Shown: positions 260 through 14,385 of the stretch, in pieces | How positions within the stretch are numbered: position 1 is the stretch's first letter | Layout of the letters: the number at the start of each line of letters is the position of its first letter | Source of the DNA: Clostridia bacterium | GTDB lineage: Bacteria; Bacillota_A; Clostridia; Lachnospirales; Lachnospiraceae | Reading direction: 5' to 3' | NCBI GenBank assembly: GCA_012515365.1 | Contig: JAAYYM010000357.1 | Span: forward strand, 1-16,563 | Length of the DNA stretch: 16,563 nt | Notes under the pieces: generated by a model | Databases searched by the model: none | What the model was told of the DNA's origin: nothing | The model's input: only the letters and a program-made list of their open reading frames with translations | Translations under genes and position numbers: made by a program

Positions 260-898
260 ATGAATCAAAAATTCTTCGATGTTAAGAAGGAGAAGCAGGA
301 TTCCATCATCAATGCAGCATTAAAGGTATTCGGGGAGAATGGATACAAAAGAGCCAGTACAGACGTTATTGTTAAACAGGCGGGCATTTCTAAGGGACTT
401 CTTTTTCACTATTTTATCAGTAAACAAGGATTATTTTCCTTTATCTATGATTACAGTGTCAGATTTATGACTCTTGAAGTAAATCAGACCGTAAAGAAGG
501 ATGAAACAGATTTTTTTGAATTGCAGAAACAGATTGAACAAGCTAAAACACGAGTTATGAAGAATTATCCATATATGCAGCAGTTTTTTGACAGCCTGAA
601 ATTTGAGAATCATCCTGATGCATTATCAGCACTCACACAGGATGATAAGCAAAATGCCATAAAAGAGCTTTATGCAGACTTCTATCAACAGGCTGATCTT
701 ACAAAATTTAAAGAGCATGTAGATGTGTCTTATATCAGAAATATGATCGAATGGTGCTCTGCCGGATTCATGAAAGAAGCATTTTGGGGAAACGATCCTG
801 ACATCGATGCAATGAGCTCAGAGTTTTCTAATTATCTAAAAATGCTACGCGACAATCTATATCGTCCGGAATATCTAACCGAAGATCACCCTACATAA
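260..898 (+). CDS. TetR/AcrR-family transcriptional regulator
   Basis: This 212-residue protein has the normal TetR length and layout. The N-terminal DNA-binding domain shows the family pattern: helix 1 around residues 12-28 (IINAALKVFGENGYKRAS), then a helix-turn-helix at about 32-52 with the typical GISKGLLFHYF recognition-helix region, followed by a KQGLF segment. The rest should be the all-helical ligand-binding and dimerisation domain, which is too variable to suggest a ligand. The ATG at 260 follows a good ribosome binding site (AAAGGAAGG, 242-250). The gene converges on the ABC exporter operon across a 284-base gap, so it could control that operon, but neither operator-like palindrome recurs at the ABC promoter near 5038-5067. 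Autoregulation is better supported. The upstream gene, mostly outside the window, is another possible target. Confidence 0.9.
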   Translation: MNQKFFDVKKEKQDSIINAALKVFGENGYKRASTDVIVKQAGISKGLLFHYFISKQGLFSFIYDYSVRFMTLEVNQTVKKDETDFFELQKQIEQAKTRVMKNYPYMQQFFDSLKFENHPDALSALTQDDKQNAIKELYADFYQQADLTKFKEHVDVSYIRNMIEWCSAGFMKEAFWGNDPDIDAMSSEFSNYLKMLRDNLYRPEYLTEDHPT

Positions 899-1182: not shown

Positions 1183-2961
1183 CTATGAAATATTTTTGAA
1201 TTGTGCCTGATACAAATCGTAGTATGCACCTTTCTTGTCTAGCAGTTCCTGTACAGTTCCCTGCTCCAGAATACCACCTTGATCGATGACAAAGATTCGG
1301 TCGGCCTTTTGTATCGTCGACAGACGATGAGCAATTACGAAAGAAGTTCTGCCTTTAAGCAGAGTCTCAATTCCATCTTGTACCAGCAGTTCTGTCCTTG
1401 TATCTATGCTGGAAGTCGCCTCATCAAGAATCAGTATCTTAGGCATGGAAATCATTGTTCTTGCAAATGCAAGCAGCTGTTTCTGACCGATTGACAAACC
1501 ACCTCCACGCTCCTCTAATACCGTATCATATCCCTTCTCAAGCTTCATAATAAAACCATCCGCATTAACAGCCTTTGCTGCTTCCACAATTTCTTCATCT
1601 GTGGCATCAAGCTTTCCGTAACGGATATTATCTTTAATGGTTCCTGAGAAAAGATAATTGTCCTGCGTCATAATACCCATTTGTTTTCGCAGACTCTCCA
1701 CTCTAACCTCTTTAATATCATACCCGTCTATATAAATATGTCCCTCCTGAATATCATAAAATCTACTGATCAGATTAACGATCGTTGTCTTACCTGCACC
1801 GGTCGGGCCGACAAGCGCAATGGTCTCACCCGGTTTGATTAAGAAACTGACATCGTTTAATATGTTGGTCTCCTGATCATATGCAAAGGATACATGCTCA
1901 AATCTAACTTCTCCCTTAATCGTCGGAAGATCACTGACCCCCTGCTCATCTTCTATTTCCGGTGATGTATCCATAATGTCAAAAATACGCTCGGCACCTG
2001 AAATATTGGTTATCAGCTGATTATAGAAATTTGACAGATTCATAACCGGCGACCAGAACATCGTGATATAGGTTCCAAATGCCATTAATGTTCCTATCGT
2101 TACCTGTTCGATTCCAAGGACCTTGATCGCTACGAAATACAACGATATGGTTCCAAGTCCCCAGCAAAAATCAATGACAGACCCAAATGCATCATTGAGT
2201 CTGACCGCACTGCAAAAAGAATCTCTATGTTCCTTTAACAGCTGATCAAAAGTATCTCTTGTTTCATCTTCCGCAGAAAAGCTCTGTATGATTCTCATAC
2301 CTGCCAGATCTTCATGTAAAAACGCATTTAAATTAGAGGATTTCTTTTTGTGGATCTGCCACCTCTTATGCGAAAATATCTGGATATACCACATTCCCGC
2401 GATCATCAAAGGCAGGCTGATCAGTGCAGCAAAAGCAAGTTTGTAATTTTTGATAAACATGATTGTAACAACCGAACACACTGTAATGAAATCAGGAATC
2501 AATGTTGTCACAGAGTTTCCAAGTACATCTTTAAGTGCATTTACATCACCAATGATCCTTGCGAGCACCTTACCGGTCGGCCTGCTGTCGAAAAACTGAA
2601 ATCCCAGTTTTTGAATATGCGTATATAATTCCTGTCTGACACTCAGCAGGATCTGATTTGTCACCTTAGCCATGATACACATACGAAGCTTAATTAACAA
2701 AACCATGGTAACATTGATCACAACTGCAAAAATACCAAGATGTAACAAACCGTTAAAATCACGTTACTTTATGTAATGGTCGATTGCCTCCTCGATCAAT
2801 AGTGGATTGATCAGCGTAACAGCTACACAGACTGCCATTATAATGATTACAAATACAATCTGCAGTTTATATGTGAGTAAATATCGGAACAATCGAAGTA
2901 ATGTCTTCATTTTTGACACTTCTATTGTCTTTTCATCACTTTTAATTGAATTTATGGGCAT
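1183..2961 (-). pseudogene. Second ABC exporter half-transporter (consensus ATPase subunit), interrupted by an in-frame TAA
   Basis: Ignoring one stop codon, the frame from ATG 2961 to TAG 1183 is continuous and encodes about 592 residues, the usual length of a fused TMD-NBD half-transporter. A TAA at 2764-2766 (codon 66) cuts it after the first membrane helix. Reading resumes in the same frame with no shift, so a single substitution such as CAA to TAA explains it. In the reconstructed protein the ABC transmembrane domain covers about 17-320. The ATPase domain follows, with Walker A GPTGAGKT (about 385-392), degenerate signature LSIGQ (about 489-493), Walker B ILILDE with the catalytic Glu (about 514) and the H-loop His in IAHR. 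The start at 2961 follows AAAGGGG, 32 bases after the upstream partner. The TTG at 2748 could restart translation but has no ribosome binding site and would lose helix 1. A sequencing error remains possible. Confidence 0.85.
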
Positions 2962-2993: not shown

Positions 2994-4724
2994 CTATGCG
3001 ATAGTAGCTAAATAGTCTCCGTATTGTGCCATATAGGTCAAATGATAAATTCCCTTTTTGGCAAGTAATTCTTCATGAGTACCACGTTCAACAATGCGTC
3101 CCTCATCCAGAATAATAATTTCATCCGCATTTCTGACAGCGGATATTCTATGTGCGATAATAATTTTTGTTGTTGATTTAAGAGATGCCAATGAACGCTG
3201 TATCTCATGTTCCGTCTCCATATCAAGAGCTGAAGTTGAGTCATCCAGCACAAGAATTGGAGCTTTCTTCGCAATGGCACGTGCAATTGAAATCCTTTGT
3301 TTTTGTCCACCTGAAAGACCAACTCCACGTTCTCCGATTACTGTCTCATATTGATTCTCCAGATTCTCAATAAAGTCAACAGCCTGTGCATCTGTAACCG
3401 CACGGCGGATCGTCTTAAAATCAACATAATCTCTCTTTCCTAACTTAATATTGTCTGTAATGGTGTCAGAAAACAGAAAGACATCCTGCATAACCAGTGA
3501 AATACTCTTCCTAAGCTCATTCAAAGACAAATTCTTGATGTTCACTCCATCCAGATAAATAGCTCCTTCAGATCCATCATACAGTCTTTGTAGAAGACTG
3601 ACGATAGAAGATTTTCCTGCTCCAGTTGCGCCCATGATTCCTATGGTCTTTCCAGGTTCAATGTGAAAATTAATATCAGCAAGAATGTTCTTTTTATCTT
3701 CTTTATGGTAGCTGACATGCTCAAATCTGATATCTCCTTTGACAGTTCCAAGTTTAACCGGATTTTCTTTCTCAGTAATCGTTGGCGTTTGTGCATAAAT
3801 TGCTTTAAATTTTTTATTGGAAGCACGCGCTGCAGATAATTCATTTGTCAGCCATCCAAGCATCTCCATTGGCCAGACAATATTATGTGAATACTCAACA
3901 AAAGCTCCCAGCTCACCCAAAGTCATCTCATCACCGATTACAAAGTAGCCCCCCAGAATCAAAGCTGAGATCGGCAAGAGTCTGGTAACAAACTGAAACA
4001 GTGGAAAGTATTTTACATACACACGCGACTGCTTCATATTCAATTCATAGTAGCGGCTATTGTGAGATAAAAACTTTGAAATCTCATGTTTTTCCCGTGC
4101 AAATGCTTTTACGGTACGCACCCCTGCAAGATTTTCTTCCGCAACTGTATTCAGCTTCGCATTTTCTTCACTGATTTCTCCGTAAATTACACCCAGCTTT
4201 CGCTCCATGATAATTGCAAATACCGCTACCAATGGTAGTGCAATCGTCGGAATGATCGCTAATTTCACATTAGTCTGGTACATACAAAATAGCGCGATAG
4301 AAGTATGAATACATACCTCAATGATCAGCATCCCGACAAAGCCAAGCGAATTCCAAATTCGGTCAACATCATCCTTTACTCTCGCCATTAATTCTCCGGT
4401 ATTATTCTTGTCAAAAAAGTCCATTGACAAACTCTGAATATGTGTAAACAGATTACGTCTGATTTCTGTCGCGATTTTTGCAGATGTAGCATCAAACAGG
4501 TATTCTTTACAATACTGACAGATACACCTTCCCACTCCTACAACCAGTATTCCAATCAGTAAAGTGGGCAATAATGAAATCTGTCCGTCTACCACAACCT
4601 TGTCAATAATCAGTCTTGTCAGCTGTGGAGCCAGCATGTCGAGTGACACTGCGATAATCATGCATAATAATGCAAACGCGTATGCCCATTTGTATTTCCA
4701 TATATAACTTGATATCTTTTTCAT
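2994..4724 (-). CDS. First ABC exporter half-transporter (degenerate ATPase subunit of a heterodimeric multidrug-type exporter)
   Basis: This is a 576-residue type IV ABC exporter half: six-helix membrane domain at about 1-310, then the ATPase domain. Visible motifs are Walker A GATGAGKS (365-372), Q-loop Gln413, canonical signature LSGGQ (470-474), Walker B ILVLDD (490-495) and H-loop His525. The usual catalytic Glu after Walker B is Asp495. The neighbouring half has the normal Glu but a degenerate signature. That split is the hallmark of heterodimeric exporters such as BmrCD, LmrCD, PatAB and TM287/288, with one dead and one active ATP site. The start follows AGGAGG in TAAATAGGAGGAAGAAATG. 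It is the first structural gene behind a long leader with an upstream ORF and a terminator. The substrate is not predictable; drug or peptide export from the membrane is the family role. Confidence 0.92.
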   Translation of the reverse strand: MKKISSYIWKYKWAYAFALLCMIIAVSLDMLAPQLTRLIIDKVVVDGQISLLPTLLIGILVVGVGRCICQYCKEYLFDATSAKIATEIRRNLFTHIQSLSMDFFDKNNTGELMARVKDDVDRIWNSLGFVGMLIIEVCIHTSIALFCMYQTNVKLAIIPTIALPLVAVFAIIMERKLGVIYGEISEENAKLNTVAEENLAGVRTVKAFAREKHEISKFLSHNSRYYELNMKQSRVYVKYFPLFQFVTRLLPISALILGGYFVIGDEMTLGELGAFVEYSHNIVWPMEMLGWLTNELSAARASNKKFKAIYAQTPTITEKENPVKLGTVKGDIRFEHVSYHKEDKKNILADINFHIEPGKTIGIMGATGAGKSSIVSLLQRLYDGSEGAIYLDGVNIKNLSLNELRKSISLVMQDVFLFSDTITDNIKLGKRDYVDFKTIRRAVTDAQAVDFIENLENQYETVIGERGVGLSGGQKQRISIARAIAKKAPILVLDDSTSALDMETEHEIQRSLASLKSTTKIIIAHRISAVRNADEIIILDEGRIVERGTHEELLAKKGIYHLTYMAQYGDYLATIA

Positions 4725-4760
4725 TTCTTCCTCCTATTTAGTAAAACGATAAACTTGCCG

Positions 4761-4794
4761 TAAATAAAAAACGTGATGTCAGGAGACACCACGT
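4761..4794 (-). terminator. Intrinsic terminator (attenuator) in the ABC operon leader
   Basis: On the minus strand the 10-base arms ACGTGGTGTC (4794-4785) and GACATCACGT (4780-4771) pair fully, counting one G-U, around the loop TCCT. A T-rich tail, TTTTTATTTA, follows (4770-4761). The hairpin lies between the leader ORF and the first structural gene, 36 bases ahead of that gene's ATG. It would therefore end transcription early unless something blocks it. Confidence 0.85.
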
Positions 4795-4817
4795 CAAATA
4801 AGCAGAAATAATACTAT

Positions 4818-4861
4818 GACCGCTTCAAACAGCGGTTTTTCTTCTCAAACACACTGCGGTC
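4818..4861 (-). promoter_or_regulatory. Alternative hairpin region overlapping the leader ORF stop codon
   Basis: On the minus strand, GCGGTC (4823-4818) can pair with either of two upstream segments. One is GACCGC (4861-4856), whose first two bases belong to the leader ORF's TGA stop. The other is ACCGC (4836-4832), which gives a compact hairpin extended to ACCGCT/AGCGGT. A ribosome paused at the end of the leader ORF would cover the first partner and force the second pairing. This is the kind of switch that attenuators use, but I could not identify the antiterminator itself by eye. Confidence 0.55.
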
Positions 4862-4976
4862 AAAAAATACTATTAACTCCATGACAGAGGTAATCTCTTG
4901 TTATTAAACTATAGTCATGTGCTGTTATACGAACTGTTACAGTATCGCTATAATGAATTAAGTTAATGCTATACAT
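4860..4976 (-). CDS. Leader peptide (38 aa) of the ABC exporter operon
   Basis: A short ORF starts at ATG 4976 and ends at TGA 4862-4860. The peptide begins MYSINLIHYS, continues DTVTVRITAH and ends CHGVNSIF. Its ribosome binding site, AAAGGAGG with the AGGAGG core at 4984-4989 and a 7-base spacing, is among the best in the window. The start lies about 55 bases after the predicted transcription start. The stop overlaps one arm of an alternative hairpin, and an intrinsic terminator follows. In Bacillus subtilis, the leader peptide BmrB works this way for the heterodimeric exporter BmrCD: drugs that slow ribosomes relieve termination. The same role is inferred here from position; I do not recognise the peptide sequence itself. 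Confidence 0.75.
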   Translation of the reverse strand: MYSINLIHYSDTVTVRITAHDYSLITRDYLCHGVNSIF

Positions 4977-5037
4977 ATAATTACCTCCTTTCAAAAAATT
5001 CACACAATCAGTTACTCATTTTTACAACTTATCTACC

Positions 5038-5067
5038 AGAATAGTACAATCCCACAGGATTTGTCAA
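5038..5067 (-). promoter_or_regulatory. Promoter of the leader/ABC exporter operon
   Basis: On the minus strand a perfect -35 TTGACA (5067-5062) is followed after 18 bases by -10 TATTCT (5043-5038), with TGTAC just before the -10. The spacer holds a small inverted repeat, AATCC-TGTG-GGATT. The predicted start near 5031 gives a leader of about 305 bases before the first half-transporter, long for this genome and consistent with attenuation control. No similarity to the TetR-region palindromes is seen. Confidence 0.8.
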
Positions 5068-5136
5068 CCCTTCTTTTTAAATTTTTTTCAAAAAATGGAT
5101 TCGGACAATTACGAAACTCATAATCTTACGAATCTA

Positions 5137-7794
5137 TTACCTGATATATTTTTCTTCAAAAGCACTTCTTTGCATCGGACGGTCAAAATAGAATCCTTGC
5201 ACCATTCTGACACTCATGTCTTCAAGAATCTTATACTGTTCTCTGGTTTCCACGCCCTCTACACATATTTTAACACCAATTGCAGCTGCCAATTCCCCGA
5301 CCATTTTAATAAAGGATTGCAGATACTGATCCTCTGCAAGCTCAGCTACAAAGCTTTGATCAACCTTAATCACATCAAGCGGAATTTCTCTGATATGATT
5401 CAGGGATGAATATCCTGTTCCAAAATCATCAAGTGCAATCCTGACACCAAGCTTCTTAATATTGCTTAGAATCTCTTTCATTCTTGCCATATCATTAATT
5501 GCCAGACTCTCCGTAACTTCCAATGTTAAATTACGCGGATTGATTCCTGTTTCCTTCAGGGTATGCTCAATAGAGTCAACAATATCAGTCTGTAACAGCT
5601 GCACTACAGATAAATTGACATTTACCTTGTAGTAAGGATGACCATTTTCATTCCAGGATTTGCATGCCTGACAAGCTTCCTTTAGCACATAATTTCCGAT
5701 TGGATTGATCAATCCCAGGTATTCCGCTAATGGAATGAATTCCGCCGGTGAAACAAATCCTAATTCTGTAGAATTCCATCTGATCAACGCTTCAGCACCT
5801 GTACATGGAGTTCCTTCCTTACGAATATCTATGATCGGCTGATAGTAAACTTCGAATTCTTTATAATTATCTGATGTTGCATCACGCATATTTTTTTCCA
5901 TGTCCAAACGTTTATTAGACGCAGAATCAGCATTTTCTGCATAATAGGCAACTCTGTTTTTTCCACTCTTTTTGGCTTCATACATAGCAATATCTGCCTT
6001 TTTGATCAGGTCCTGCGTTGTCTCGCCCTCATCCGGAAAGGTTACGATACCCATGCTAGTCGTGCAATAATAATCCGCACCCTTTAAAAACCATGGCTTA
6101 TTAAAAACAATTCTGATTTCTTCAATAATGTTGGTAAACCGCTCATAACTACTCTCCGGAACAATGATGACAAATTCATCTCCGCCCATACGATAGCATG
6201 TATTTTCAATCCCCTCAATCCTTCTCAGACTATGTGAAATTGCTTTTAACAGCACATCTCCATACTGATGTCCAAGTCCGTCATTGATATGTTTAAAATC
6301 ATCCAGATCCAGATACAAAAGTGCACCCTTTCCCGATTTCTGTTTTGCCTCGTCCACATAGCATACCAGATCTCGTTCACAGCACATACGGTTATAGAGT
6401 CCGGTCAGGAAATCGTTATTGGCCTGCTGTTCGATTTTTTGCTGATACAATTTTTTATCAGTAATATCAAAAATGGCACACAACGATACCTTTCTTCCAT
6501 CCACCCACTGAATGTAAGTATAATGAAGGTCATACCATCTTCCCTTCTTCGCATGATGGATCTCTAGGTAAGAATCACTGACCCTGGTTTTACGTCCCTG
6601 CTCCAACAGCTGGTCAATCGTACCCTCTTTTATTTCTGTTTCAAATGTATTCTTAAAAATCCTGTTTGCAAACAAGACTTCTCCTGTTTCCAGATCACGC
6701 ACATAAATCGCACTTCCGACATTATCTAAGATTGCTTCTAATGATGCGTAAGAACTTGCAAGTGAGTTCTTTTGTATTCTTCTTGTCAAAATACTTTGCA
6801 GAATTTTTGTGACATCTCCTAGGAATTTAACCTCATCAAGCTCCCAGTTTCTCTCACATCGTGTTTCCAAAAAGATTGCATACATAGCTGCAGCACCGTT
6901 AATCATAATAGGGATCACGATCAATGCCTTCACACCATAATGCATTAGATTTCTTTTTGCACTATCAAGAACTTTAGTTTTTGTAGAGATCACCGTGACC
7001 TTATCCGAGAAGGAAGACATACTCTCTGAATCAAGATCCGTCAGTGAACTAAGCAAAGACGGAGCATCACTGCTTTCCCATAATGCAATCGTTTCCATTC
7101 CGATTGTATGTTTGCATTTTCTTGCAATATATGCATGACTAAGCTCTATAAAGGTACCTGACAGCTGCATAATTTCAGTTGCAATCTGTTCAAAGCTCGA
7201 CTCACTTTCCAAAAGCTGCACTACGTCTGTCATAATCTCACTTCTACGAAGTTCACGGCTCATTTCCTGCTCAGACGTTCTGCTTCTGACAGATTCCGTT
7301 TTTGCTTTCAGGGCACTCATTTTATAATCTAAAATCTTTAAGGAAGCATTTCTGAGCAGATCCATTCTACTCACAAACCCTTCCTGTGATACTTTCGTTG
7401 TGAAGTTTAGTGCGTCATTCTCTCCTTCAGGTTTATCATCAAAAATAGCACAAATAAACCAGTTAATAACTGGTCTGCCAACAGCTCTGACTGACATACT
7501 TGCAATTTTGACGTTGGAATACTTCGTATCCTCAACAACCTGTTCTTCGATAGAAGCCCCTGTAACACGCTTGATTACATTTTCGACCTGGTTTCTATCT
7601 AAAATACCGAGAATTCTATCCACTTCGTCAGTTTTACCTGACATTTCCGTAATTCTTCTTCCATCTGCATCGGTGCAATACAAAAAAACATTTGCTACCT
7701 TGGAAAAATAATCCTGTAGTTTTTGTATTTCATTTACATCAATCAGACCAGTAGAGAAAAAAGAACTACGGCTCTGCTCATCCACAGCAGCCAT
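5137..7794 (-). CDS. Multidomain c-di-GMP enzyme: N-terminal sensor, GAF, PAS, GGDEF, EAL
   Basis: The 885-residue protein makes and/or breaks cyclic di-GMP. Residues about 12-120 form a sensor resembling the start of PocR-type domains (LIDVNEIQKLQDYF) but without their usual Cys residues. A coiled linker (about 140-190), a GAF-like domain (about 195-340) and a PAS-like domain (about 350-450) follow. The cyclase domain has an intact GGDEF (537-541) with D505 in its upstream HINDGLGH motif; no RxxD inhibitory site lies at the usual place before it. The EAL domain keeps all recognised phosphodiesterase residues: E668 (EAL), N727, E759, D789/D790 in the LDDFGTGYSS loop, K810, E846 and Q866. No membrane helix is evident, so it should be cytosolic. 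ATG 7794 follows AGGGAG with 6-base spacing. Its net direction is unknown. Confidence 0.93.
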   Translation of the reverse strand: MAAVDEQSRSSFFSTGLIDVNEIQKLQDYFSKVANVFLYCTDADGRRITEMSGKTDEVDRILGILDRNQVENVIKRVTGASIEEQVVEDTKYSNVKIASMSVRAVGRPVINWFICAIFDDKPEGENDALNFTTKVSQEGFVSRMDLLRNASLKILDYKMSALKAKTESVRSRTSEQEMSRELRRSEIMTDVVQLLESESSFEQIATEIMQLSGTFIELSHAYIARKCKHTIGMETIALWESSDAPSLLSSLTDLDSESMSSFSDKVTVISTKTKVLDSAKRNLMHYGVKALIVIPIMINGAAAMYAIFLETRCERNWELDEVKFLGDVTKILQSILTRRIQKNSLASSYASLEAILDNVGSAIYVRDLETGEVLFANRIFKNTFETEIKEGTIDQLLEQGRKTRVSDSYLEIHHAKKGRWYDLHYTYIQWVDGRKVSLCAIFDITDKKLYQQKIEQQANNDFLTGLYNRMCCERDLVCYVDEAKQKSGKGALLYLDLDDFKHINDGLGHQYGDVLLKAISHSLRRIEGIENTCYRMGGDEFVIIVPESSYERFTNIIEEIRIVFNKPWFLKGADYYCTTSMGIVTFPDEGETTQDLIKKADIAMYEAKKSGKNRVAYYAENADSASNKRLDMEKNMRDATSDNYKEFEVYYQPIIDIRKEGTPCTGAEALIRWNSTELGFVSPAEFIPLAEYLGLINPIGNYVLKEACQACKSWNENGHPYYKVNVNLSVVQLLQTDIVDSIEHTLKETGINPRNLTLEVTESLAINDMARMKEILSNIKKLGVRIALDDFGTGYSSLNHIREIPLDVIKVDQSFVAELAEDQYLQSFIKMVGELAAAIGVKICVEGVETREQYKILEDMSVRMVQGFYFDRPMQRSAFEEKYIR

Positions 7795-12078: not shown

Positions 12079-12417
12079 TTAAGAAAAACTGTATATCAGA
12101 ATACCAATAATGATGAGTATTAATGCTGCTATCTTCTTCCTTGTCAACTTCTCCTTAAACACAAGAACTCCAAAAAGCGTCACATAAAAGTAACTTGTCG
12201 TTTCCAACACAGGTCCAAGGCTAAGTGGGATTCCCCGATAAGCAATCACTTCGATCACTGTTGTCATAAAAAACAAAAAATAAGCACCGACGACCATAGG
12301 ATTGAGATATTCAGAAACAACTGACTGATGAGGCTTAAGTGCCTCTTTTTTTAATAAGACCTGTGAAACTGCTGCGATAAAAACACTAAATAAAAAACAA
12401 AGGATATAGATTATCAT
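12079..12417 (-). CDS. EamA/SMR-type small multidrug-like half-transporter (second of a pair)
   Basis: The 112-residue protein has four hydrophobic helices, about 2-22, 42-62, 66-84 and 93-111, matching one half of a ten-helix DMT transporter or one small multidrug resistance subunit. The pattern PLSLGPVLETTSYFYVTLFGVLVFKEKLTRKKIAALILIIIGI is the typical EamA C-terminal signature, with a Glu after the helix 3-4 turn. ATG 12417 is separated from the upstream half's TGA by one base, and AAAGGAGG lies about 11 bases before it, inside the upstream gene. The upstream-extended frame starts are rejected because of that signal. By analogy with ArnE/ArnF, which flip undecaprenyl-linked aminoarabinose, the pair may flip a lipid-linked sugar for the polysaccharide pathway. 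That role is inference. Confidence 0.8.
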   Translation of the reverse strand: MIIYILCFLFSVFIAAVSQVLLKKEALKPHQSVVSEYLNPMVVGAYFLFFMTTVIEVIAYRGIPLSLGPVLETTSYFYVTLFGVLVFKEKLTRKKIAALILIIIGILIYSFS

Positions 12418-12418
12418 T

Positions 12419-12802
12419 TCACTGATCCCTCCTTTGTTCTTCTGTCTGATCCACCTGCTGATCTGAAAAAGAAAATAGAATAATCCCTGCAATAATAATC
12501 AGACAACCTATGATTTTAAGCGGTGTAATCTGTTCCGAAAAGAACAACATCCCCCATATCATTCCCCATATGACTGTCACGGCACGATTTGCATATGCCA
12601 TCGTCAGAGGGACTCTCTTAATGATCTGCTGCCAGGCGATCGCATATAGTCCAAGAATCACAAGCATTGCCCCATATGCCAATATGAACCCCCGACTCAT
12701 AAAGCTCTGCGTCGAAGCGATTTTACTGCATACGGCAACCAATGAAAATATAACAAGGATGACATGAAGCAGCAAATAAATCAAATTTCTTTTGTTCTTC
12801 AT
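12419..12802 (-). CDS. EamA/SMR-type small multidrug-like half-transporter (first of a pair)
   Basis: The 127-residue protein has four hydrophobic helices (about 8-27, 36-54, 63-84 and 94-112) and a charged C-terminal tail rich in Gln, Glu and Asp. The stretch VPLTMAYANRAVTVIWGMIWGMLFFSEQ is characteristic of the EamA/DMT superfamily. The ATG at 12802 overlaps the TGA of the upstream polymerase/ligase gene as ATGA, and AAAGGAG precedes it, so translational coupling is likely. It probably dimerises with the next gene product, because halves encoded side by side with one base between them usually form a heterodimer. The pair's place at the end of a polysaccharide operon suggests a lipid-linked substrate rather than a drug. 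Confidence 0.8.
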   Translation of the reverse strand: MKNKRNLIYLLLHVILVIFSLVAVCSKIASTQSFMSRGFILAYGAMLVILGLYAIAWQQIIKRVPLTMAYANRAVTVIWGMIWGMLFFSEQITPLKIIGCLIIIAGIILFSFSDQQVDQTEEQRRDQ

Positions 12803-14385
12803 GCCTGCTCCTTTGTTCTGCAAAGATGCGATCCAATCCCCATGAAAAGAAAGATGATCGGCGTGCAAATGACCTGCTGATAGCAGAAAATATTATGAAA
12901 TATGTAACAAAATATACTGAGTCCTGCTGCTGCGATCATTGTGTTTCTTGCCCTGTTTTTCGTAAAGGTAACTGCTGCACTGATAAATGTACCAAGATAA
13001 GCAATTCCGCCAAATATTCCTGTACAAATGGTCAGATTAAACCATTCACAGTGTGCGTTTGTTAAGATACTTCCCCAAGTTGATTCTGCTTCTTTTTTAT
13101 AGAACTCGTAAGTATAAGCCGCAAAAGAATCTGGTCCAACACCAAATAGTTTTTCCTTTAGGGGAAACTCTGAAAACATTTTCGCAGAATACATCCAGAT
13201 ACCGCCTCGTGTATTTCCCCAGCCCTCATCAAAATACAAATAAGGAATCTTATTCAGAAATGCAAGTGCCGGTGGAAGCAACTGATTTGTATTCAAATAG
13301 ATCAAAAGAAATATAAGTATCAGACCTGTCGGCAATGCAATCAAAGCCGTTCTTTTGAGCCAGATTACTTTTCCCACATCCATCATCTGCTTTTTCTCTC
13401 TATTTCGCAAATAGAAATAAAGTAAGATGACTATGAGCAATACCGGCCACATAATGACATTCTGGGAGCATACAACAGAAATTGTATCCAGCTCCACTGC
13501 CTGTCCCGGGAACAAAAGCTGAAGAATTCCCATGATCCTCATAGATCCGATACATAAAATCACGATAAGCAGAAATCGCAACATGTCCTTATTAGAGTCA
13601 AATGAAAAGCAAAACAACACAAACATCAGAGTCGCTAATGCTATAAATGCACTGTCACTATTCTGTGTCACTAAGGTAGAAAAGCCTAGAAAACAATAAA
13701 TAGTCATACAGATCTTTACCCATTTCTTTTCAGCTTTCCATAAAACAACGACTCCAATCGGCAGTACAATACAAAGAAAGCTGGAATACCAAGTCGCCTG
13801 TCCGATCGTTGTCAGAAATTCAATATAATATTTGCTGTCAACTCCCTCATATAAAGCTAACGGATCAATCATAAAGCGGTGCAGGATTGCGAATAAAAAA
13901 ACAAATGCCGAAGAACCAAACAGCATGACCAGAAAATCCGGCATCCATGAATCCATCCAGAATCTTGACACCAGAAAATAAATGGCAACAAACATCAGTT
14001 GAGAAATCAGCCCCATTTTCCATCCATTATAACCATATAGAGCATCCTGCGGATAGGAGCTGAGAAAATATGAAGAAAGTGCCAGACATGCATAACCAAT
14101 TACAAACAGATCCAATGTCGAAAGTTTATCCGGCAATTGCTTAAATGACAGTTTCTTTCTGGACATAATTAGCAGAATCACGCCTGTAATAGCTGCAAAA
14201 ATTAACATCACTATTGTGATTTTGAAAAACATTTCATATTTAAAATCACCGATATCAAAATACTTATCATGATAAAATAATCCGGTGGAAACGACAAGGA
14301 TATACGCATAAATCGTAATAATTACCTTCATAATGTATGAAACTACTTCGTCTCCCTCGATTTTCGTCTTTTTCTTCTTTCCCAT
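12799..14385 (-). CDS. O-antigen ligase/Wzy-type polysaccharide polymerase
   Basis: This 528-residue integral membrane protein has about a dozen hydrophobic helices and one large outside loop, at about 366-443. The loop and following helix carry the family-like pattern TRGGIW...LFGVGPDSF...NAHCEWFN (about 392-450), matching the RGxxW, GxGxxxF and xAHxxxxx features of the Wzy_C/WaaL superfamily. Such enzymes join lipid-linked oligosaccharides, either polymerising repeat units or transferring them to an acceptor. The ATG at 14385 is chosen because AGGAAGGG lies just before it. The longer frame start at 14421 overlaps the upstream gene and has no ribosome binding site. The gene starts 16 bases after the glycosylphosphotransferase stop. 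Polymerase and ligase roles cannot be told apart from sequence alone. Confidence 0.85.
   Translation of the reverse strand: MGKKKKTKIEGDEVVSYIMKVIITIYAYILVVSTGLFYHDKYFDIGDFKYEMFFKITIVMLIFAAITGVILLIMSRKKLSFKQLPDKLSTLDLFVIGYACLALSSYFLSSYPQDALYGYNGWKMGLISQLMFVAIYFLVSRFWMDSWMPDFLVMLFGSSAFVFLFAILHRFMIDPLALYEGVDSKYYIEFLTTIGQATWYSSFLCIVLPIGVVVLWKAEKKWVKICMTIYCFLGFSTLVTQNSDSAFIALATLMFVLFCFSFDSNKDMLRFLLIVILCIGSMRIMGILQLLFPGQAVELDTISVVCSQNVIMWPVLLIVILLYFYLRNREKKQMMDVGKVIWLKRTALIALPTGLILIFLLIYLNTNQLLPPALAFLNKIPYLYFDEGWGNTRGGIWMYSAKMFSEFPLKEKLFGVGPDSFAAYTYEFYKKEAESTWGSILTNAHCEWFNLTICTGIFGGIAYLGTFISAAVTFTKNRARNTMIAAAGLSIFCYIFHNIFCYQQVICTPIIFLFMGIGSHLCRTKEQA

Follow-up and report, generated by a model that had tools for sequence, protein, structure and literature searches.

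A putative ribosome-controlled transcription attenuator with its own Shine-Dalgarno sequence as a switch arm ahead of a heterodimeric ABC exporter in Lachnospiraceae

The window, by which we mean the whole 16,563-nt stretch of DNA analysed here, carries on its minus strand the two genes of an ABC exporter, which are preceded by a short open reading frame (ORF) and several RNA signals (Table 1). From 5067 down to 4724, these are arranged in the order promoter-like site, leader, stop-codon hairpin, intrinsic terminator, and exporter gene. The leader ATG is preceded by AAAGGAGGTAATTAT, a strong Shine-Dalgarno sequence (SD), and 64 nt separate the leader stop from the terminator, while the exporter has AGGAGG as its own SD. 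An original prediction had proposed a promoter, a 38-codon leader ORF with a good ribosome-binding site, a hairpin over the leader stop codon, and a terminator; each of these lies on the minus strand where it had been placed. The 307-nt leader folds with z = -2.75, and 1 of 100 shuffled sequences folds equally well.

Table 1. Features of the leader and of the exporter genes in the window.
Feature	Position	Strand	Sequence or motif	Remarks
Promoter-like site	5038..5067	-	TTGACA-18-TATTCT	10/12 consensus matches
Segment 1, leader SD	4979..4988	-	GGAGGTAATT	Putative anti-antiterminator 5' arm; pairs with 4895-4886
Leader ORF	4860..4976	-	Peptide MYSINLIHYSDTVTVRITAHDYSLITRDYLCHGVNSIF	38 codons; ATG at 4976, stop ends at 4860
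Segment 2	4883..4897	-	GAGATTACCTCTGTC	Within leader ORF; partner of segment 1 or segment 3
Anti-SD core of segment 2	4895-4886	-	GATTACCTCT
Stop-codon hairpin	4818..4861	-	GACCGC...GCGGTC	Over leader stop codon TGA; varies among relatives
Segment 3, terminator 5' arm	4783..4795	-	GACGTGGTGTCTC	Alternative partner of segment 2
Intrinsic terminator	4762..4795	-	Tail TTTTATTT	Hairpin 4795-4770, -15.8 kcal/mol
ABC exporter half 1	2994..4724	-	DDSTSALD	PF00664 + PF00005; Asp at catalytic carboxylate
ABC exporter half 2	1183..2961	-	DEATSSID	Split by in-frame TAA at 2766-2764
Half 2 pieces	2961-2764 and 2763-1183	-		First piece 65 codons; downstream piece carries the matches

Both exporter halves contain PF00664 and PF00005. 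Their matches among solved structures include BmrC/BmrD (YheI/YheH) and TM_0288 chains, with eukaryotic ABCB chains scoring higher. Among the best 80 of 581 relatives, the catalytic position is Asp in half 1 of 80 of 80 and Glu in half 2 of all 77 in which that gene is seen. We take this combination to be the usual arrangement of a heterodimer in which one site is degenerate, the type of pump that BmrB-type attenuators also control. Since half 2 carries an in-frame stop in the window, the pump is possibly non-functional in this genome. Its downstream piece comprises 437 residues ahead of Walker B, whereas all 77 relatives that show the gene (again from the best 80 of 581) have a frame open over at least 508 residues ahead of Walker B. 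The TAA could reflect a pseudogene, a polymorphism, or a base-call error; either the pump of this genome may be non-functional or the stop may be a wrong base call.

Just 3' of the exporter operon, positions 904-1181 contain nested inverted repeats with 39-nt and 26-nt arms (92-96% complementary) that look like a MITE-type element. Convergent with the operon lies a gene for a TetR-family regulator (260-898, plus strand), which might act as a second regulator. Upstream, a gene of 885 codons for a GGDEF-EAL protein (5137-7794, minus strand) ends approximately 70 nt ahead of the leader promoter. Because a simple terminator scan lists none between the end of this gene and the leader promoter, some read-through into the leader is possible. 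Elsewhere in the window, two overlapping frames of 137 and 149 amino acids (12079-12868, minus strand), the downstream one matching the C-terminal half of EamA, are possibly a frameshifted transporter gene.

For comparison, loci were picked by similarity to exporter half 1 only, and the best 80 of 581 confirmed matches were used. In these 80 loci, half 1 is 64-82% identical and the titles are mostly Lachnospiraceae; most display a leader ORF about 200-480 nt 5' of the exporter. An automatic leader call succeeded in 77 of 81 regions (the window and the 80 loci). This call favours ORFs whose end complements their own SD, and the same-place tests, the covariation, and the partner permutations described below all rest on it. 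A pairing-blind choice by SD strength alone agrees with the automatic call in 73 of 80 regions; of the leaders picked in this manner, 71 of 80 contain a strong SD complement compared with 86 of 800 shuffled leaders. Ahead of the exporter, 75 of the 77 called loci have a hairpin of -10 kcal/mol or below with a T-tail; the other two are L069, which shows a terminator farther upstream, and L080. At the 75 loci with a terminator, the leaders span 24-61 codons, including two that are not credible (L066 and L074). These two are excluded from the frame, arrest-motif, folding, and permutation analyses but included in the same-place, covariation, and word-frame counts. In the 73 kept leaders, frame 0 is open in 73 (by selection), frame +1 in 4, and frame +2 in 1.

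At 57 of 72 loci, compared with 7 of 72 after shuffling, the leader is preceded by a predicted promoter with at least 10 of 12 matches. A scan of the whole window yields 52 promoter sites versus 57.6 in shuffles and thus no excess, so that the promoter call in the window rests on position. The original prediction had staked its case on conservation of the leader frame and the terminator in orthologs. Both recur in the relatives, as does the promoter-like site.

Near the 3' end of the leaders, a AAATTACCTCC-like RNA word recurs, which can pair either upstream with the SD of its own leader or downstream with the GGTAATTT-like 5' arm of the terminator. The GGTAATTT-type stretch complements the 5' half of this anti-SD word, and judged from the sequences the two pairings are mutually exclusive. 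In the window, the duplex of segments 1 and 2 amounts to -15.1 kcal/mol and that of segments 2 and 3 to -13.4 kcal/mol. The antiterminator, which the original prediction had left without a pairing, can therefore be placed at 4897-4883 with 4795-4783. In the terminator 5' arm or loop, GGTAATTT or a variant is found at 64 of 75 loci by the loose expression GGT[AG][AG]?T, a count for which no control was run. Where the automatic call gave no leader (L010, L031, L041, and L055), the word is visible by eye in L010, L031, and L055 but not in L041. Hence, neither the automatic call nor inspection by eye reveals such a leader in L041, and none that is credible occurs in L066 and L074. Within an alignment of one 11-member clade, no invariant blocks are longer than the SD, the anti-SD block, and the terminator arm.

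The coincidence of the two pairings is well above that in shuffled leaders. When the best complement of the SD and the best complement of the terminator are sought independently, they fall in the same place in 48 of 75 leaders compared with 203 of 2250 shuffled ones; RNAduplex, which allows bulges, reduces the difference (50 of 75 versus 763 of 3000). Moreover, when the whole interval from leader start to terminator is considered, the terminator arm finds its best partner in the anti-SD stretch at 45 of 75 loci. As sequence relatedness inflates column shuffles, own and swapped partners were compared among 59 representatives, and none of 2000 permutations equalled the true partners for either helix. 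In motif-anchored columns from 71 distinct triples, the strongest covarying pair of the SD:anti-SD helix is paired in 58 compared with 47.1 in column shuffles (0 of 1000), and that of the anti-SD:terminator arm helix in 51 compared with 41.3 (0 of 1000). Covariation is uneven: only 2 of 12 SD:anti-SD and 3 of 11 anti-SD:terminator pairs are matched by no more than 10 in 1000 column shuffles, as the core is too invariant to be informative. The best covarying pair of SD:anti-SD is unpaired in 13 of 71.

Variants of the word near the ORF 3' end comprise ATTACCTCC, ATTATCTCC, TTTACCTCT, TTACCTCAT, and TTGCCTCC, each of which complements the SD of its own locus. Thus, L056 reads GGAGGCAG / TTGCCTCC / GCAATC, the loci L006, L017, L057, and L071 read GTGAGGTAA / TTACCTCAT, L053 and L073 read AGAGGTAAA / TTTACCTCT, and L065 reads CGGAGGTAA / TTACCTCCG. 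Sequence and comparison show the elements and the two competing pairings, as well as the recurrence of both and the fit of the pairings within each locus. L043 and L051 keep the layout with other pairings, namely GACTG/CAGTC contacts between leader and terminator arm, and L051 has a 12-bp lock ATCAATAACATC.

The word is read in leader frames 1, 0, and 2 in 57, 15, and 1 of 73 loci, respectively (at least 6 of 8 matches); one of the 15 frame-0 loci is the non-credible L066, and the single frame-2 locus is the window itself. Accordingly, it encodes ..ITS..-like or ..LPP..-like peptides or, in the window alone, ..DYL... As the word is read in three frames, selection at this site appears to act on the RNA rather than on the peptide. 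A conserved leader peptide was rejected because of the three reading frames, and comparison of the leader peptides across the loci revealed no common sequence. The notion that a particular peptide serves as the sensor is not supported, as what recurs is the RNA word.

These observations bear on the strongest competing explanation, a peptide-specific stalling leader of the Erm/MsrD type, in which one drug class causes a defined nascent chain to stall the ribosome, the RNA pairings being of secondary importance. The macrolide arrest motif R/K-X-R/K (PMC6851288, PMC10314930) is indeed enriched in residues 2-13, being present in 29 of 73 leaders compared with 12.0 +/- 2.7 after shuffling (0 of 1000), although the 29 is inflated by close relatives counted apart. 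Its X is mostly located at codons 5 to 8, and 5 of the 11 cases at codon 7 stem from one close clade. In the same residues, ++ (7 versus 13.2) and +XXX+ (6 versus 10.0) are not enriched, and +XX+ is weakly enriched (17 versus 11.1, 19 of 1000). Further, 30 close leader pairs from few clades show 0.31 synonymous versus 0.19 nonsynonymous differences per site, consistent with a mild constraint on the leader peptide. However, the peptides are otherwise unalike and include no conserved arrest peptide, the window leader and 43 others lack R/K-X-R/K in residues 2-13, and a word that occurs in three frames is not kept for its peptide. A dedicated stalling peptide is thus improbable as the basis of the family, while the enrichment suggests macrolide sensitivity in many of its members.

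The competition between the two helices was modelled by ensembles (partition functions) on the nascent RNA up to the terminator loop, in which a helix with at least 4 expected pairs was counted as formed. Without a ribosome and with a 5' UTR of 60 nt, SD:anti-SD, the lock, is formed in 69 of 73 leaders and anti-SD:terminator arm in 4; with 20 nt, the numbers are 64 and 6. No lock is formed in L011, L043, L051, and L078. With the start site occupied, the antiterminator appears in 49 of 73 leaders (mean 6.2 pairs) compared with 25 of 438 with a shuffled leader. An antiterminator exclusive with the terminator, as in attenuators, is hence modelled in these 49, the window included. It is absent from the modelled ensemble in the remaining 24, which include L001, the closest relative, at 0.7 pairs. 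In the window, the lock reaches 12.0 expected pairs without a ribosome at 60 nt of 5' UTR and 3.0 at 20 nt, and the antiterminator 10.7 with the start site occupied. Both helices are also modelled for Anaerocolumna aminovalerica DSM 1283 (L073), Mobilisporobacter senegalensis DSM 26537 (L013), and Mobilitalea sibirica DSM 26468 (L057).

Minimum-energy folds of the window place the ribosome more precisely. The lock is closed with a single ribosome at codon 5, 8, 12, 20, or 36-38, and a ribosome at codon 30 covers the word. A ribosome protects about 15 nt on either side of its P site, and the ribosome size used in these placements is an assumption. No antiterminator appears in the minimum-energy fold when the 5' UTR is included and the start is masked. 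Since ribosomes within the ORF leave the lock closed or cover the word, we propose occupancy of the start site, directly or by queuing, as the trigger. In 60 of 75 loci, a distance of 18-39 nt separates the 3' end of the anti-SD from the last nucleotide of the stop codon (full range 12-81), so that a terminating ribosome may leave the anti-SD uncovered. Once the 3' arm of the terminator exists, the completed hairpin dominates the ensemble; therefore, the decision must fall during transcription, as in other attenuators.

The hairpin over the leader stop codon had been regarded as the switch. It contains neither of the conserved switching arms and is variable among the relatives, where the region from stop to terminator folds to -5 kcal/mol or below in 49 of 74; it was therefore rejected as the switch. 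It is perhaps a spacer or a pause hairpin at the apex of the antiterminator, a role deduced from its position.

A second competing explanation retains the lock and discards the switch: SD:anti-SD would merely limit translation of the leader, as in autoregulation of a small protein, and the terminator would be a constitutive attenuator that sets a low basal level. This agrees with the lock being the stronger helix on average (-12.0 versus -9.8 kcal/mol for anti-SD:terminator arm) and being predicted in more loci (69 versus 49 of 73). Yet it leaves the complementarity between anti-SD and terminator arm and its locus-specific fit unexplained, and the peptide it would regulate is not conserved. 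We therefore judge simple autoregulation to be quite unlikely, even more so than a stalling peptide.

Taken together, the leader (about 5030-4770, minus strand) is likely a ribosome-mediated transcription attenuator in which the leader SD acts as an arm of the anti-antiterminator and a ribosome lingering on this SD turns the pump on. While the start site is empty, the SD would pair with the anti-SD word near the leader end and thereby form the anti-antiterminator. This closed lock would keep the 5' arm of the terminator free, the terminator would form, and the pump genes would not be transcribed. During fast translation, the ribosome would leave the SD and pass the anti-SD, and the lock would close behind it or the word would be covered, again resulting in termination. 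In contrast, if a drug acting on initiation or early elongation arrests ribosomes at the start site, or a queue behind a stall keeps them there, the SD would stay occupied. The anti-SD would then be free when the 5' arm of the terminator emerges, the antiterminator would form, and the exporter would be transcribed. The signal would be the occupancy of the leader SD and no particular peptide; the model does not place a stall at R/K-X-R/K on the SD. That RNA polymerase and the ribosome obey these pairings, and which drugs act as triggers, we infer from the pairing model. The original prediction of a ribosome-mediated attenuator before a heterodimeric ABC exporter of Lachnospiraceae therefore holds with regard to the recurring frame, terminator, and promoter, but has to be amended with regard to the hairpin as switch, the peptide as sensor, and the identity with BmrB addressed below.

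In a broader form, to which we give even odds, the leader is a peptide-independent gauge of the occupancy of its own SD, which would serve both as the ribosome loading site and as an arm of the anti-antiterminator. Anything that keeps ribosomes at the start, whatever the drug, would open the pump operon, and each finished round of translation would lock it again. An early R/K-X-R/K would add macrolide sensitivity in many members, and a family of such switches would guard one exporter across Lachnospiraceae. If this is true, a leader can report ribosome occupancy without a dedicated stall peptide by using its own ribosome-binding site as a switch arm, and a conserved pump of many Lachnospiraceae is poised for ribosome-targeting drugs. 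The pairing model can be checked at about 70 loci, some of them in cultured strains.

The weakest competitor, in which the RNA works as a translation attenuator or in the manner of a riboswitch on the ribosome-binding site of the exporter itself, could appeal to the fact that the anti-SD word could in principle pair with any SD, including the AGGAGG of the exporter, but is highly improbable given that the terminator stands between the two in 75 of 77 loci and that a scan of 14 of the 80 loci gave no Rfam match at the gathering score. At 4600-5200 of the window, Rfam yields only matches below gathering, the best being RsaF with 24.6 of 60 bits. A wider regulon was also considered and rejected, as exact patterns of SD, anti-SD, and terminator arm match only known exporter leaders. 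The three-part pattern is present in 2 of 9 genomes and, in two further searches, in 1 of 299 each time; all 9 genomes hold a known locus and 7 of them were missed, so that this strict pattern says little about distribution. The SD and anti-SD pattern alone matches in 7 of 120 genomes (one being a known leader) compared with 19 of 120 for a reversed control. Because the control matches more often, this pair alone is no general device in those 120 genomes.

Attenuators before ABC transporter genes are known in general (PMC2965389). In the leaders analysed here, a short ORF with an SD lies between promoter and structural gene, and an intrinsic terminator follows between leader and gene (75 of 77). 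One of the closest known systems is bmrB of the Bacillus subtilis bmrCD operon, which is described as a heterodimeric ABC exporter operon with a translated leader, an intrinsic terminator, and a predicted antiterminator and anti-antiterminator (PMC4191407). According to this description, lincomycin, erythromycin, and chloramphenicol induce, and translation of the leader is required (PMC4191407). The original prediction had equated the two plans. However, terminator, antiterminator, and anti-antiterminator of bmrB are all placed within nt 60-162 of its ORF (PMC4191407). Here, the terminator and the competing structures are not confined to the leader ORF, as the terminator follows the leader stop and the leader SD is itself an arm of the lock, so that bmrB as described is set apart.

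vmlR of B. subtilis likewise comprises anti-antiterminator, antiterminator, and terminator, and it is switched on when a ribosome is arrested while initiating on a short uORF (PMC9226507). Further likenesses are a hairpin at the apex of the antiterminator and natural uORF variants that are mostly tolerated (PMC9226507). In contrast to the leaders analysed here, where the SD forms part of the lock and the ORFs are 24-61 codons long, its uORF is described with three codons, its SD as single-stranded ahead of SL-1, and its target as an ABC-F protein (PMC9226507). Listeria rli80-hflXr has a 14-amino-acid ORF over the anti-antiterminator, an RLR motif, and a terminator, and is induced by lincomycin and erythromycin; it differs in its target gene, and the account of it does not describe a leader SD as a lock arm (PMC6310831). 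B. subtilis tlrB (yxjB) shares a leader peptide and an intrinsic terminator, but the report on it found no overlapping antiterminator, and a ribosome stalled at the C-terminal RYR itself blocks the terminator (PMC6851288), whereas in the present leaders a single word is contested by the leader SD and the terminator arm. A tlrB hairpin that hides the SD of the gene is said to inhibit leader translation as well (PMC6851288), which by analogy may serve as a partial precedent.

More distant are toiL-topAI of Escherichia coli and patAB of Streptococcus pneumoniae. The former has a uORF sensing several classes of ribosome drugs but is described as acting on the SD of the downstream gene and via Rho, with no role for an intrinsic terminator (PMC12121999). 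The latter displays a terminator ahead of a pair of ABC exporter genes, for which an antiterminator and an anti-antiterminator are predicted, but its predicted transcription start lies 67 bp before patA and the description mentions no leader ORF (PMC4319486). Our literature search, mainly of open-licence papers, returned no report of a leader or wiring of the present kind. The principle of a ribosome-set choice among anti-antiterminator, antiterminator, and terminator has experimental support for vmlR (PMC9226507) and rli80-hflXr (PMC6310831) and is described with predicted structures for bmrB (PMC4191407). Thus, while the principle is known from bmrB, vmlR, and rli80, what looks new is the wiring, with the SD as a lock arm, the terminator outside the leader, and switching arms that recur despite unlike peptides.
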